This document shows, piece after piece, positions 2,924 through 5,406 of a stretch of DNA of 64,000 bases. The stretch's first letter is position 1, and each line of letters begins with the position of its first letter. The stretch is from an uncultured Ruminiclostridium sp. GTDB lineage: Bacteria; Bacillota; Clostridia; Oscillospirales; Ruminococcaceae. The translations under genes were made by a program, and so were the position numbers. The stretch spans positions 1 through 64,000 of the forward strand of contig CANRFO010000005.1 in NCBI GenBank assembly GCA_947629925.1, given 5' to 3'. The notes under the pieces were generated by a model that worked only from the letters and a program-made list of their open reading frames with translations, was not told the DNA's origin and did no database searches.

Positions 2924-3126
2924 AAAATACGGAGCTTTCCGAAGAAAGCTCCGTTTACCGCCGCGCCGTCGCATGATGAATAAAAACCCGCTTATGAGCA
3001 GGGTGGGTAAAGATCCCCTTGCAGGTTCACGCTCCCTTCGTCCGCGTTGCGGGAGGTCTGCAATCCGCTGCAAACGAGAAATCCCTTTTAACTATGTGTT
3101 GGATTTTATGAACCACCACACTAACT
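2924..3126 (-). ncRNA. Structured small RNA candidate (6S-like?)
   Basis: About 200 nt without a credible gene between the DUF1292 stop and a terminator. Complementary arms include TTGCAG (3019-3024) with CTGCAA (3058-3063), nested CTCCC (3032-3036) with GGGAG (3051-3055), a CCTGCT/AGCGGG hairpin near 2988-3004, and AAATCC/GGATTT closer to the 5' end. Length, long-hairpin shape and stand-alone terminator fit 6S RNA, but I cannot confirm the family. No good promoter is visible, so it could be a processed 3' UTR. The minus strand is favoured because only that side has a proper terminator. Confidence 0.4.
2929..2954 (-). terminator. Terminator with UUCG tetraloop
   Basis: Minus-strand 11-bp stem ACGGAGCTTTC / GAAAGCTCCGT closed by TTCG and followed by ATTTTATTTTG. 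It ends the structured RNA candidate and/or the DUF1292 transcript. The opposite strand has a poor T tract. Confidence 0.8.
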
Positions 3127-3179
3127 GAACGTAGCAGTGATATTATTATTTATTAAAACAACAAATAAATGCCTGTATA

Positions 3180-3509
3180 TTATTGGCAGTGACCACAGTC
3201 ACAATTGTCTTCATGCTCATCATCACCGTAAAGTGAATCCAGATGTTCTATAAAAGCTTGCCCTACTTCGTCGTACAGATCCTCGTCATCAACGGTGGAC
3301 AGCATATATTCGCCTTCTTCTTCGATCTCCTTCAGAATGATGAATTCAACATCTTCATCGTCCATTTCATCGCTTTCATTATACGGAACGAGCGCAACAT
3401 AGTTCTGATCGTCGTAGCAGATAGCGTCGATAACTTCAAAAGGTTCTCCGTCAAGATCAACTATCTGGGGTTCGTATTCTTCAAATCCATCTTTTTTATC
3501 TTCAGCCAT
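3180..3509 (-). CDS. DUF1292 (YrzB-like) acidic protein
   Basis: A 109-aa, very acidic protein of the DUF1292 family, widespread in Bacillota and of unknown function. Visible: a central beta-rich core (IVDLDGEPFEVIDAICYDD, then YVALVPY and EFIILKE), long Asp/Glu runs and a C-terminal DNCDCGHCQ tail that could bind a metal. In many Bacillota the family sits near yrrK/yrzL; that context is absent here. The start is preceded by an 11-bp hairpin rather than directly by a Shine-Dalgarno (see the leader entry). It is transcribed alone from a perfect SigA promoter. Confidence 0.85.
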   Translation of the reverse strand: MAEDKKDGFEEYEPQIVDLDGEPFEVIDAICYDDQNYVALVPYNESDEMDDEDVEFIILKEIEEEGEYMLSTVDDEDLYDEVGQAFIEHLDSLYGDDEHEDNCDCGHCQ

Positions 3510-3560
3510 TTTACGAAATACTTTTAAAAAGTGTGAACATGCTTTTTAAAAGACTCTCCT
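3510..3560 (-). promoter_or_regulatory. Shine-Dalgarno-hairpin-start leader of DUF1292 gene
   Basis: On the minus strand AAAGGAGAGT (AGGAG = 3556-3560) is followed by a perfect 11-bp stem, CTTTTAAAAAG (3542-3552) with CTTTTTAAAAG (3521-3531), then 11 nt and the ATG (3509). No other Shine-Dalgarno lies near the start. The loop also contains an ATG opening a 9-codon frame ending TAAAATG at the gene start, an alternative (coupling) reading. Confidence 0.6.
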
Positions 3561-3581
3561 TTCATTTTACCTAACTATTTA

Positions 3582-3610
3582 ATTATATCTTATATATGGT
3601 TTCGTGTCAA
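3582..3610 (-). promoter_or_regulatory. SigA promoter of DUF1292 gene
   Basis: Perfect TTGACA (3605-3610), 17-nt spacer, TATAAT (3582-3587) on the minus strand; start near 3575 gives a leader of about 65 nt. Confidence 0.85.
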
Positions 3611-3717
3611 TAGAAAAAGAAATGTTTTTGATTACCAAAAGTAATTTATGTGTAAAATGCAACAATAATTATTAACAACAGAGGAAAATTATATACAAAA
3701 TAACAATAAGGAAATCG

Positions 3718-3746
3718 TTGACATTTATATATAAATATGCTATTAT
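3718..3746 (+). promoter_or_regulatory. SigA promoter of the large RNA
   Basis: TTGACA (3718-3723), 17-nt spacer, TATTAT (3741-3746); predicted start near 3753. It faces away from the DUF1292 promoter. Confidence 0.8.
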
Positions 3747-3752
3747 ATAACC

Positions 3753-4413
3753 AAGGAAAGAGAGACAGAAAACCTCAGAAATGTAAGCTGTCAAATCGAC
3801 CGATGAATGACGGGATTGACTTAAAAGGATTCTGAGAGGGTGAAAATTTAAGGAATTTTTTGCTAATGTTTTTATTTCCTACGGCAAAGCTGAAAAGAAT
3901 AATGACTTTCATGCGATAATTACAAAACGACATTTTTCAGAGTTCGGCTTTGATGTACAGTTTGATGGTTGTACAAATTTTTACCGGGAAAGGAAGCGAG
4001 TCCGATGGAAATAATTGAATCACAGAATCACGCATTGCGGCTCGTGACCGTGAATTGACTTACTTTAAGAAATCTGAAATTTGAAATACAGCTCGTATGG
4101 CTGACATATTTCAATTTGATTTACATCAGAACGATTAGTTCATGAAATGTCTTCACAGTGTCATGGCTGCAATAAGTGATACGACCCGGGCGTAAACCCG
4201 AGGAGTATGCAGCTGAAACTGCTTTAATATATTTAATCCCATTCGGGGAGTTGATTGAAAATGAGAATTGTTTTCAGGATCGGACCCAGTGAATAACAGA
4301 AAGGGATTAAGCCAATGTACTGATTAAATTGACAATTGAATAACGTCCTGCGGGTAATGCCGCGTATAAAAGGATACATAAACCTCTTGCAGAAAACCTG
4401 CAAGAGGTTTTTT
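3753..4413 (+). ncRNA. Large (~660 nt) structured non-coding RNA, family unassigned
   Basis: This fills the longest gene-free stretch in the window. It has its own near-consensus promoter and a strong terminator, and no protein frame I would believe. Complementary arms run along the whole length: CCTCAGAA (3773-3780) with TTCTGAGAGG (3830-3839); GTCAAATC with GATTGAC inside it; TGTACA twice (3954-3959, 3970-3975); TCACG/CGTGA (4028-4032, 4043-4047); a long A/T-rich stem 4076-4088 with 4106-4117; CATGA/TCATG (4141-4145, 4161-4165); CGGG/CCCG (4187-4200); GCAG/CTGC (4209-4222); TTAATCCC/GGGATTAA (4233-4240, 4303-4310) enclosing a GAAAA/TTTTC hairpin; GCGG/CCGC (4350-4363). RNase P, tmRNA and SRP signatures are absent. 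Size and independence recall ROOL, GOLLD or OLE RNAs, but I cannot assign one. A possible 17-codon frame at 3867 is not convincing. Confidence 0.75.
4381..4413 (+). terminator. Strong intrinsic terminator of the large RNA
   Basis: Perfect 12-bp stem AACCTCTTGCAG (4381-4392) / CTGCAAGAGGTT (4398-4409) with a 5-nt loop and a T tract. It separates the RNA from the kinase gene promoter. Confidence 0.95.
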
Positions 4414-4427
4414 GGTGATAAAGCGTA

Positions 4428-4456
4428 TTGACAAATCCGTGAAATAGAGTTATTTT
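4428..4456 (+). promoter_or_regulatory. SigA promoter of the PfkB kinase gene
   Basis: TTGACA (4428-4433), 17-nt spacer, TATTTT (4451-4456), directly after the RNA terminator; start near 4463. Confidence 0.75.
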
Positions 4457-4488
4457 ATATAAAACAGTTTTGATTATACGGAGGCAAA

Positions 4489-5406
4489 ATGATATACACA
4501 GTAACATTCAATCCCGCAATAGATTATGTGATTTCATTACCTGAGTTTGTTGAAGGGAAAATAAACCGTTTTTCGGAAGAAGAAATTTTTGTAGGCGGCA
4601 AAGGGATAAATGTCTCTATAATGCTTAATCGCCTTGGAATAGCATCGAAAGCCTTAGGATTTACAGCGGGCTTTACAGGCAAGGCAATAGAAAATGACCT
4701 GACGGAGCAGGGAATAGAAACAGATTTTATACACTTAAAAAATGGCAGATCACGTATAAACGTTAAAATAAAAGCAGAGCTTGAAAGCGAAATAAACGGG
4801 ATCGGACCTGTTGTTGGAAAAGAAGCCGTTGATATGCTGTTTACTAAGCTTGATGATTTGATAGAGGGGGATACTCTTGTGTTGGCAGGGAGCATGCCTA
4901 CTTCTCTTCCAAACGATATTTATGAACAGATAGCGTGTCGTTTGAACTCTAAAAAAATAATGATTGTTATAGACGCATCGGGGGAATTGCTGCTTAATGT
5001 TTTGAAATATCGCCCTTTCTTGGTAAAACCGAATCACCATGAGCTTGGTGAAATGTTCGGCACAGAAATAACAGACAGTGAAAAAGCTAGTTTTTATGCA
5101 GAAAAGTTAAAAAATAAAGGGGCAAAAAACGTTCTTGTTTCTATGGCGGAGAATGGAGCCGTCCTTCTTGACTCAAACGGAAATTTTCATCAGATAAACG
5201 CTCCGCTCGGAAAAGTTGTGAATTCGGTAGGAGCGGGAGATTCAATGGTAGCCGGGTTTTTGGCAGGGTATACTGAAAGAAAGAATTATGAATATGCCCT
5301 TTCACTGGGAATTGCGGCAGGAAGCGCAACAGCGTTTTCTAAAGGACTTTCGGAAAAAGAAAAAGTATATGAAATTTTATCTTCACTAATAAAAAATGAT
5401 TTTTAA
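4489..5406 (+). CDS. fruK: 1-phosphofructokinase family (PfkB/FruK-type) kinase
   Basis: A 305-aa ribokinase-fold sugar-phosphate kinase, probably fructose-1-phosphate to fructose-1,6-bisphosphate. Evidence: TFNPAIDYVI at the N-terminus (substrate Asp), FVGGKGINVS (first PfkB signature), LAGSMP and the C-terminal NSVGAGDSMVAGFLAG motif with the catalytic Asp. This layout is the FruK/LacC branch rather than sugar kinases proper. ATG start with a CGGAGG site. The usual fructose partners (fruR regulator, fruA PTS permease) are absent, so tagatose-6-phosphate kinase is possible and the substrate is not certain. Confidence 0.85.
   Translation: MIYTVTFNPAIDYVISLPEFVEGKINRFSEEEIFVGGKGINVSIMLNRLGIASKALGFTAGFTGKAIENDLTEQGIETDFIHLKNGRSRINVKIKAELESEINGIGPVVGKEAVDMLFTKLDDLIEGDTLVLAGSMPTSLPNDIYEQIACRLNSKKIMIVIDASGELLLNVLKYRPFLVKPNHHELGEMFGTEITDSEKASFYAEKLKNKGAKNVLVSMAENGAVLLDSNGNFHQINAPLGKVVNSVGAGDSMVAGFLAGYTERKNYEYALSLGIAAGSATAFSKGLSEKEKVYEILSSLIKNDF

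Follow-up and report, generated by a model that had tools for sequence, protein, structure and literature searches.

A stand-alone structured RNA with short reading frames and long complementarity to the 16S tail, apparently undescribed, in an order of mostly gut and rumen bacteria

What kind of gene occupies positions 3718–4413 of the window, a 64,000-nt stretch of contig CANRFO010000005.1 from an uncultured Ruminiclostridium sp.? A sequence-only reading had proposed an independent, large, structured RNA gene, bounded by a TTGACA-17-TATTAT promoter and a perfect 12-bp terminator, that would belong to the class of ROOL, GOLLD, and OLE RNAs or be undescribed. The boundary elements and the transcript between them are:

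3718–3746 (+): promoter TTGACA-17-TATTAT, matching the consensus at 11 of 12 positions
3754–4413 (+): structured RNA of ~660 nt, identified by its fold (z = −6.9), relatives, and covariation
4380–4410, with a T run to 4413 (+): intrinsic terminator with a 13-bp stem, AAACCTCTTGCAG / CTGCAAGAGGTTT, called from the fold and by script

The proposed promoter is present at the 5′ boundary, and the RNA start at 3754 is placed 7 nt past its −10 element; positions 3000–5200 contain 10 promoter-like sites, compared with 7.4 in shuffled sequences, so the promoter match itself is only moderately special. The terminator stands as proposed except for its stem length, which the fold gives as 13 bp and not 12 bp; a generic terminator scan did not list it, and both the fold and a separate script did. 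None of 20 shuffles folds as well as the RNA, and none of 20 folds as well as its minus strand (z = −4.5). No plus-strand ORF of at least 60 aa lies inside 3718–4413, and a minus-strand ORF of 66 aa overlaps the 3′ end of the gene. The promoter, the strong fold, and the terminator confirm, at the level of sequence, that 3718–4413 is a stand-alone RNA gene, and, with the covariation in homologues described below, they bear out its proposed independence, size, and structure.

Comparison with known RNAs did not reveal a described family to which this RNA belongs. In particular, no Rfam family reaches threshold in the region (Rfam 15, 4227 families), consistent with the suggestion that the RNA could be undescribed, and known Rfam families were rejected as its identity after scans of the region and of relatives. 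A scan relaxed to E 10 gave ten matches in the region, all far below threshold, and ROOL, GOLLD, OLE, HEARO, RNase P, SRP, and tmRNA are not among them. The proposed class is not supported: ROOL, GOLLD, OLE, and HEARO (the last three presumably among the 4227 models scanned) gave nothing in the region (E ≤ 10) or in two sets of relatives, one of 20 (E ≤ 0.5) and one of 16 others (E ≤ 0.05). The ROOL model (RF03087) also has no match in the genome of the window, where the positive control gave no signal. The claimed lack of RNase P, tmRNA, and SRP signatures holds, with no covariance-model match for RNase P RNA or SRP RNA and no ARAGORN hit for tmRNA (RF00023) in the window. Two further identities were rejected: a tmRNA substitute, because the genome has a tmRNA elsewhere (166.8 bits), and 6S RNA, because 6S RNA is the neighbor on the opposite strand. 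ROOL, GOLLD, and OLE are large, ornate, independent bacterial RNAs (cf. PMC12286853); like them, the window RNA is large and independent, and, unlike them, it carries short frames and has no covariance-model, viral-contig, phage, or plasmid match. The RNA family is apparently undescribed. No description of it occurs among the literature matches listed, which have supplements and most subscription papers outside their scope, and an earlier description is possible; passages of PMC8632094, PMC7580957, and PMC11109978 make no mention of the family, and no word starting with Ruminococc occurs in the main text of either PMC8632094 or PMC11109978.

Among 71 genus genomes, a search at the DNA level revealed two full-length relatives (70–71% identity) and many further fragments that share three blocks; the better fragments, when read out, look like complete RNAs that have both a promoter and a terminator. 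The most conserved block, GGNAAGGNRGCGAGTCCNRTGG, has one match in the window (0.01 expected) and is present in 41 stretches of genome contigs, some of them chance matches, with carriers mostly from Ruminiclostridium, Ruminococcus, Oscillospiraceae, and Clostridia MAGs, plus Collinsella. The exact core pattern of this block has no match in viral contigs, and there is no match among phage or plasmid records; a phage or plasmid origin was rejected on these grounds. A count of 85 of 396 family genomes, obtained with a two-mismatch core pattern, was discarded because the reversed control often matched and several hits were ordinary genes.

We built a covariance model of the core block (R1) from 41 sequences, which match it by construction. 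At E ≤ 0.01, R1 matches 52 of the 71 genomes in the genus, including 36 of 41 good ones, and 69 of 394 genomes of the order, some of the latter falsely; at E ≤ 0.001, it matches 8 of 291 class-level genomes. A genome normally has one match; G036, G038, and G039 have weak additional ones, and G062 gives a partial match of borderline strength. Of the eight class-level matches, the three that lie outside the order were judged false by inspection (two read into long frames, and in the other one no frame begins at the start site). Among 18 loci inspected, L143 and L151, which run into long frames that we take to be RsmH, L147, which has a 41-residue frame, and L139, a match to what looks like a downstream module, were not kept as members carrying the core frame, ORF1. 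A search of 100 loci with R1 gave 99 primary hits and 94 members, after removal of L069 (contig end), L181 and L186 (no start), L179 (63-codon frame), and L182 (for which the script chose a GTG upstream of the likely ATG); a set of 88 RNAs further omits L008, L015, L054, L077, L078, and L171, whose promoter calls are unreliable. By script, a TTGAC-17-TAnnnT promoter is present in 83 of the 94 members and a terminator in 63, and the start-to-terminator length is 350–1636 nt, with a median of 673 (n = 59 members with both). The family is strongly promoted, normally single-copy, and distributed through a large order whose bacteria come mostly from gut and rumen. In three very similar Collinsella contigs (L054, L055, and L071), the core block is accompanied by ORF MGTEQIAEAFGIGSEVSEVR, a second AAGGTGAGTCC motif, and a hairpin resembling a terminator, and the scan found no clear promoter; these loci may represent a form of the family that occurs beyond the order, or a transfer.

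The fold of the RNA is supported by compensatory changes in relatives. The helices concerned are:

3773–3780 / 3830–3839 (+): 5′-domain helix; 75% of cells paired, 4 of 8 pairs with two-sided changes
3886–3894 / 3943–3951 (+): helix 1; 88.9% of cells paired, 6 of 7 pairs with two-sided changes
3954–3961 / 3968–3975 (+): helix 2, the pre-core hairpin; 97.2% of cells paired, 5 of 8 pairs with two-sided changes
3996–4002 / 4039–4045 (+): start-codon hairpin around the ORF1 AUG; 93.7% of cells paired in 41 relatives
4233–4240 UUAAUCCC / 4303–4310 GGGAUUAA (+): helix 6; 95.1% of cells paired in nine relatives

Across nine relatives from the subfamily to which the window RNA belongs, 96% of cells are paired in seven helices (50 pairs), with two-sided changes at 16 of the 50 pairs. 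The number of two-sided cells is 34, compared with 11.4 ± 2.4 in shuffles (0 of 500 reach 34) and at most 8 in slid versions. The helices were taken from an RNAalifold consensus computed on this very alignment, a choice that favors them. The consensus itself has two-sided changes at 26 of 75 pairs, and a second subfamily has them at 29 of 129 pairs; the covariation in homologues by which the earlier proposal was to be judged is therefore present. Two long-range arm pairs had also been proposed. The closing pair 4233–4240/4303–4310, corresponding to helix 6, is upheld by its pairing in relatives, with one two-sided change among its 7 tested pairs. The arms 3773–3780/3830–3839 are only moderately supported: their pairing and two-sided changes speak for them, but, in this poorly aligned part, the 5′-domain helix set slid by +1 is comparable, with more two-sided cells (9 vs. 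5) and less pairing (61.9% vs. 72.4%). The pre-core hairpin scores 5.39 over 83 members, compared with 4.79 for swapped controls (5.01 for the highest of 200), a real, small signal that is biased by taking the best complement. The start-codon hairpin has a nearly invariant 5′ arm and a 3′ arm (4039–4045, inside the end of ORF1) that varies mostly among letters still able to pair; its region ends were picked by complementarity, which favors the pairing result, and just 3 of its cells are two-sided in the 41 relatives. A model-fitted alignment of 109 matches, including a few secondary or noise matches and with ends likewise picked by complementarity, gives 15 two-sided cells vs. 3.8.

The core of the fold contains a ribosome site and a short frame:

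3989–4003 (+): Shine-Dalgarno site AAAGGAAGCGAGUCC, with extended, interrupted complementarity to the 16S tail
4005–4058 (+): ORF1, MEIIESQNHALRLVTVN, a conserved frame of 15–30 codons

The block AAAGGAAGCGAGUCC-N-AUG forms the start of ORF1, the start codon being ATG in 91 of the 94 members and GTG in 3. The frame ends after 15–30 codons in all 94 retained members (18 and 23 in the other frames), a count that is partly conditioned, because long-frame loci (L143, L151, and L147; L179, 63 codons) had been set aside as false beforehand. For this reason, we recounted members of at least 41 bits, with L069, cut by a contig end, as the sole exclusion: ORF1 ends after 15–30 codons in 61 of 61, and each of the other frames does so in 15 of 61. 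In eight of nine groups, frame 0 is the frame with the most conservative codon changes (group D, the exception, is best in another frame, and the results for groups R and g71 come from a single pair in each). With the codons of the hairpin arm left out, frame 0 ranks first in seven of nine; in group B, synonymous changes are fewer in frame 0 than in frame 1. Synonymous changed codons number 139 in frame 0 vs. 93 and 80 in the others, and substitutions at the three codon positions number 264, 235, and 315. The predicted peptides are acidic (mean charge −1.39), with E at position 4 or 5 in 80 of 94 members. The codon changes amount to a coding signal that is real but modest. Conservation of the core is partly a matter of selection, because the R1 core served to find the members, many of which are mutually related. 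A conserved protein frame had been named as a finding that would overturn the RNA proposal; such a frame is indeed present, but the RNA proposal survives it, as frames and structure coexist. The label "non-coding" is wrong for 3718–4413, which has a conserved short frame in its core and putative micro-frames downstream.

The ORF1 start site is predicted to pair unusually far into the 16S tail. Specifically, the predicted duplex of the window copy pairs 14 of the 16 bases of GGAUCACCUCCUUUCU, the 16S 3′ tail. The gain from the extra 16S bases averages −6.5 kcal/mol over the 94 members, compared with −0.7 for 54 window ORFs (at least 150 aa, some spurious, with starts picked by best Shine-Dalgarno), and TCC at −4 to −2 is present in 0 of these 54 ORFs. 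The tail sequence was taken from the rRNA operon of a single-contig genus member; searches for the exact tail in the assembly that contains the window and in three further genus genomes gave no match, which is probably explained by the frequent lack of rRNA genes in MAGs. The predicted duplex ends 1–2 nt 5′ of the AUG and may hinder initiation. The invariance of GAGUCC could reflect a protein site.

Further small frames are positioned downstream of ORF1:

4245–4250 (+): Shine-Dalgarno of ORF2, GGGGAG, read from the sequence
4261–4296 (+): ORF2, MRIVFRIGPSE, with MRVIRIGPSE and MIAQTTIIRIGPAE in relatives
4315–4323 (+): ORF3, two-codon frame AUG UAC UGA, read from the sequence; minimal frames recur in relatives

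ORF3 is the weakest of the three frames; helix 6 covers its ribosome site, with arm 4303–4310 preceding it. In the 88 RNAs, downstream ATGs preceded by a Shine-Dalgarno number 58 at a threshold of −12, which ORF1's own site passes in 55 of 88 RNAs, compared with 9.0 in shuffled sequences and 3 on the reverse strand; other thresholds give 14 vs. 2.3 shuffled and 3 reverse and, at a looser setting, 83 vs. 41.2 shuffled and 7 reverse. These counts replace a first test with ORF1 included (57 observed, 26.8 shuffled, 8 reverse), because its threshold was so strict that ORF1 often failed. The motif YGAKTCC has 60 copies in 35 of 94 RNAs, vs. 7.7 and 3 in controls, and 30 of the 60 sit directly 5′ of NATG. 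The downstream peptides (7–22 residues) are basic, with a mean charge of +1.48 (n = 69, some nested), and recurrent ones include RIGPSE and MISEVSAKRGFG. Three observations on individual members may be added. In L010, ORF1 is followed by three tandem eight-residue frames, MEGEYLPL, MESEYLPL, and MEGEYLLL, each with a GAGTGATTCC-like site; the long members L059, L092, L100, and L152 have several micro-frames, such as MA*, MRT*, MY*, and MR*, among basic frames of ~10–15 residues; and L141, L142, L145, and L148, from another family of the order, share a second block, CCGATGGGCATACYGATGRGTATG, downstream of ORF1.

These frames bear on the idea of a purely structured, non-coding RNA of the giant ornate type, in which the frames would be incidental. 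The size, the own promoter and terminator, the strong fold, and the covariation all fit that idea, but the narrow frame length in 61 of 61 strong matches, the use of GTG in place of ATG, the codon-level constraint, the enrichment of ribosome sites, and, for the giant type, the lack of a match to known large RNA families make it improbable. The main rival is instead a micropeptide messenger, an RNA that would mainly make one acidic micropeptide (ORF1) and at least one basic one, with a fold that only sets translation rates. The modest amino-acid-level constraint in ORF1, the recurrence of downstream peptides such as RIGPSE and MISEVSAKRGFG, the opposite mean charges of ORF1 and downstream peptides (−1.39 vs. 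+1.48), and the tandem frames of L010 argue for it; the small share of the RNA occupied by frames, the two-codon frames that would hardly yield useful peptides, and the large amount of conserved structure outside the frames argue against it, and we consider it possible, if rather unlikely.

With its fold and its tiny frames at unusually strong ribosome-binding sites, the window RNA probably represents a new kind of RNA, one that acts through the ribosome. The specific form of this reading that we favor, and to which we give roughly even chances, is a new dual-function RNA family: stand-alone, strongly promoted, folded, translated from several micro-frames, and likely to sense or tune ribosome availability. 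Its sequence-level support consists of the promoter, the compensatory fold, the terminator, ORF1, the 16S complementarity, the micro-frames, and the locus. In the proposed mechanism, 30S subunits would be captured at the start site hyper-complementary to 16S; translation of ORF1 would open the start-codon hairpin; translation of ORF2 would open 4233–4240/4303–4310 and free the hidden site of ORF3; and ribosome traffic would thereby set the fold of an RNA that responds to that traffic. Its role would likely be the sensing or tuning of ribosome availability, or the dosing of micropeptides, rather than control of a neighboring gene. The family unites a large conserved fold, a micropeptide frame, and start sites with long 16S-tail complementarity. 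Capture of ribosomes, if it occurs, would add a layer of translation control beside 6S RNA, and production of the peptides, if it occurs, would add a micropeptide family missed by ordinary gene finders.

Two of the hallmarks of a dual-function RNA, which also include RNA function and translation in cells, are found in the sequence of this one, namely compensatory structure and a conserved short frame, the latter with a modest codon signal. Staphylococcus aureus RNAIII is a dual-function RNA of hundreds of bases, structured, independent, and with a short peptide frame. The window RNA resembles it in all four respects and differs in having several micro-frames, long 16S-tail complementarity, and a fixed locus beside 6S RNA; it has no Rfam match at threshold. 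Minigenes such as lambda bar are very short frames within a transcript that influence translation, as is the axe-txe minigene (PMC8708949); unlike these, the window RNA has arrays of frames in a conserved fold together with a conserved 15–30-codon frame. The odc1 and other uORF motifs have a short conserved frame in a structured RNA upstream of a controlled gene (passages of PMC8632094); the window RNA shares the short conserved frame in a structured RNA and, unlike them, is a free-standing transcript.

The locus has a recurrent set of neighbors:

3180–3509 (−): DUF1292 gene, divergent upstream neighbor, found upstream in 71 of 96 loci
2951–3143 (−): 6S RNA, divergent neighbor; E 8.9e-6, 35.6 bits
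4489–5406 (+): pfkB-family kinase gene, downstream

The 6S match in the window is below the Rfam gathering score (35.6 vs. 46.4 bits), and a scan at the gathering threshold misses it for this reason. Among relatives, a 6S RNA match lies on the opposite strand, upstream of the RNA, in 15 of 20 (E ≤ 0.5) and in 8 of 16 more (E ≤ 0.05); all 23 of these neighbors have the same orientation, and 15 of the 23 pass the gathering score. The recurrence of 6S RNA and DUF1292 upstream indicates that the locus is probably stable and chromosomal, not mobile. The exception is another family of the order, in which the neighbors differ and six loci (L138, L141, L142, L145, L146, and L148) have no 6S match at E ≤ 0.05. 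On the other side, the sequence 3′ of the RNA varies between relatives (by inspection, uncounted), and the pfkB gene has a promoter-like site of its own at 4428–4456. Both observations weigh against an attenuator leader, in which translation of ORF1 would govern whether transcription continues into the following gene, which is pfkB in the window, as does the upstream, divergent position of the conserved neighbors. The leader-peptide-like length of ORF1, the terminator that follows, and the location of the next gene on the same strand would suit such a leader, which we nevertheless judge very unlikely.

6S RNA binds, and thereby traps, RNA polymerase. The proximity to 6S RNA suggests, by analogy, a parallel role for the window RNA: both are stand-alone and share a locus, with binding of a core machine as the suggested parallel; the two are nonetheless encoded separately, on opposite strands. 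A ribosome-binding counterpart of 6S RNA, in which one or many start sites hyper-complementary to 16S would capture 30S subunits and micro-frames of one to a few codons would hold or count ribosomes, is a tentative proposal that we consider doubtful. Further upstream, a T-box leader at 1903–2136 (−; 122.9 bits) precedes a LeuA-like gene at 162–1826 (−).
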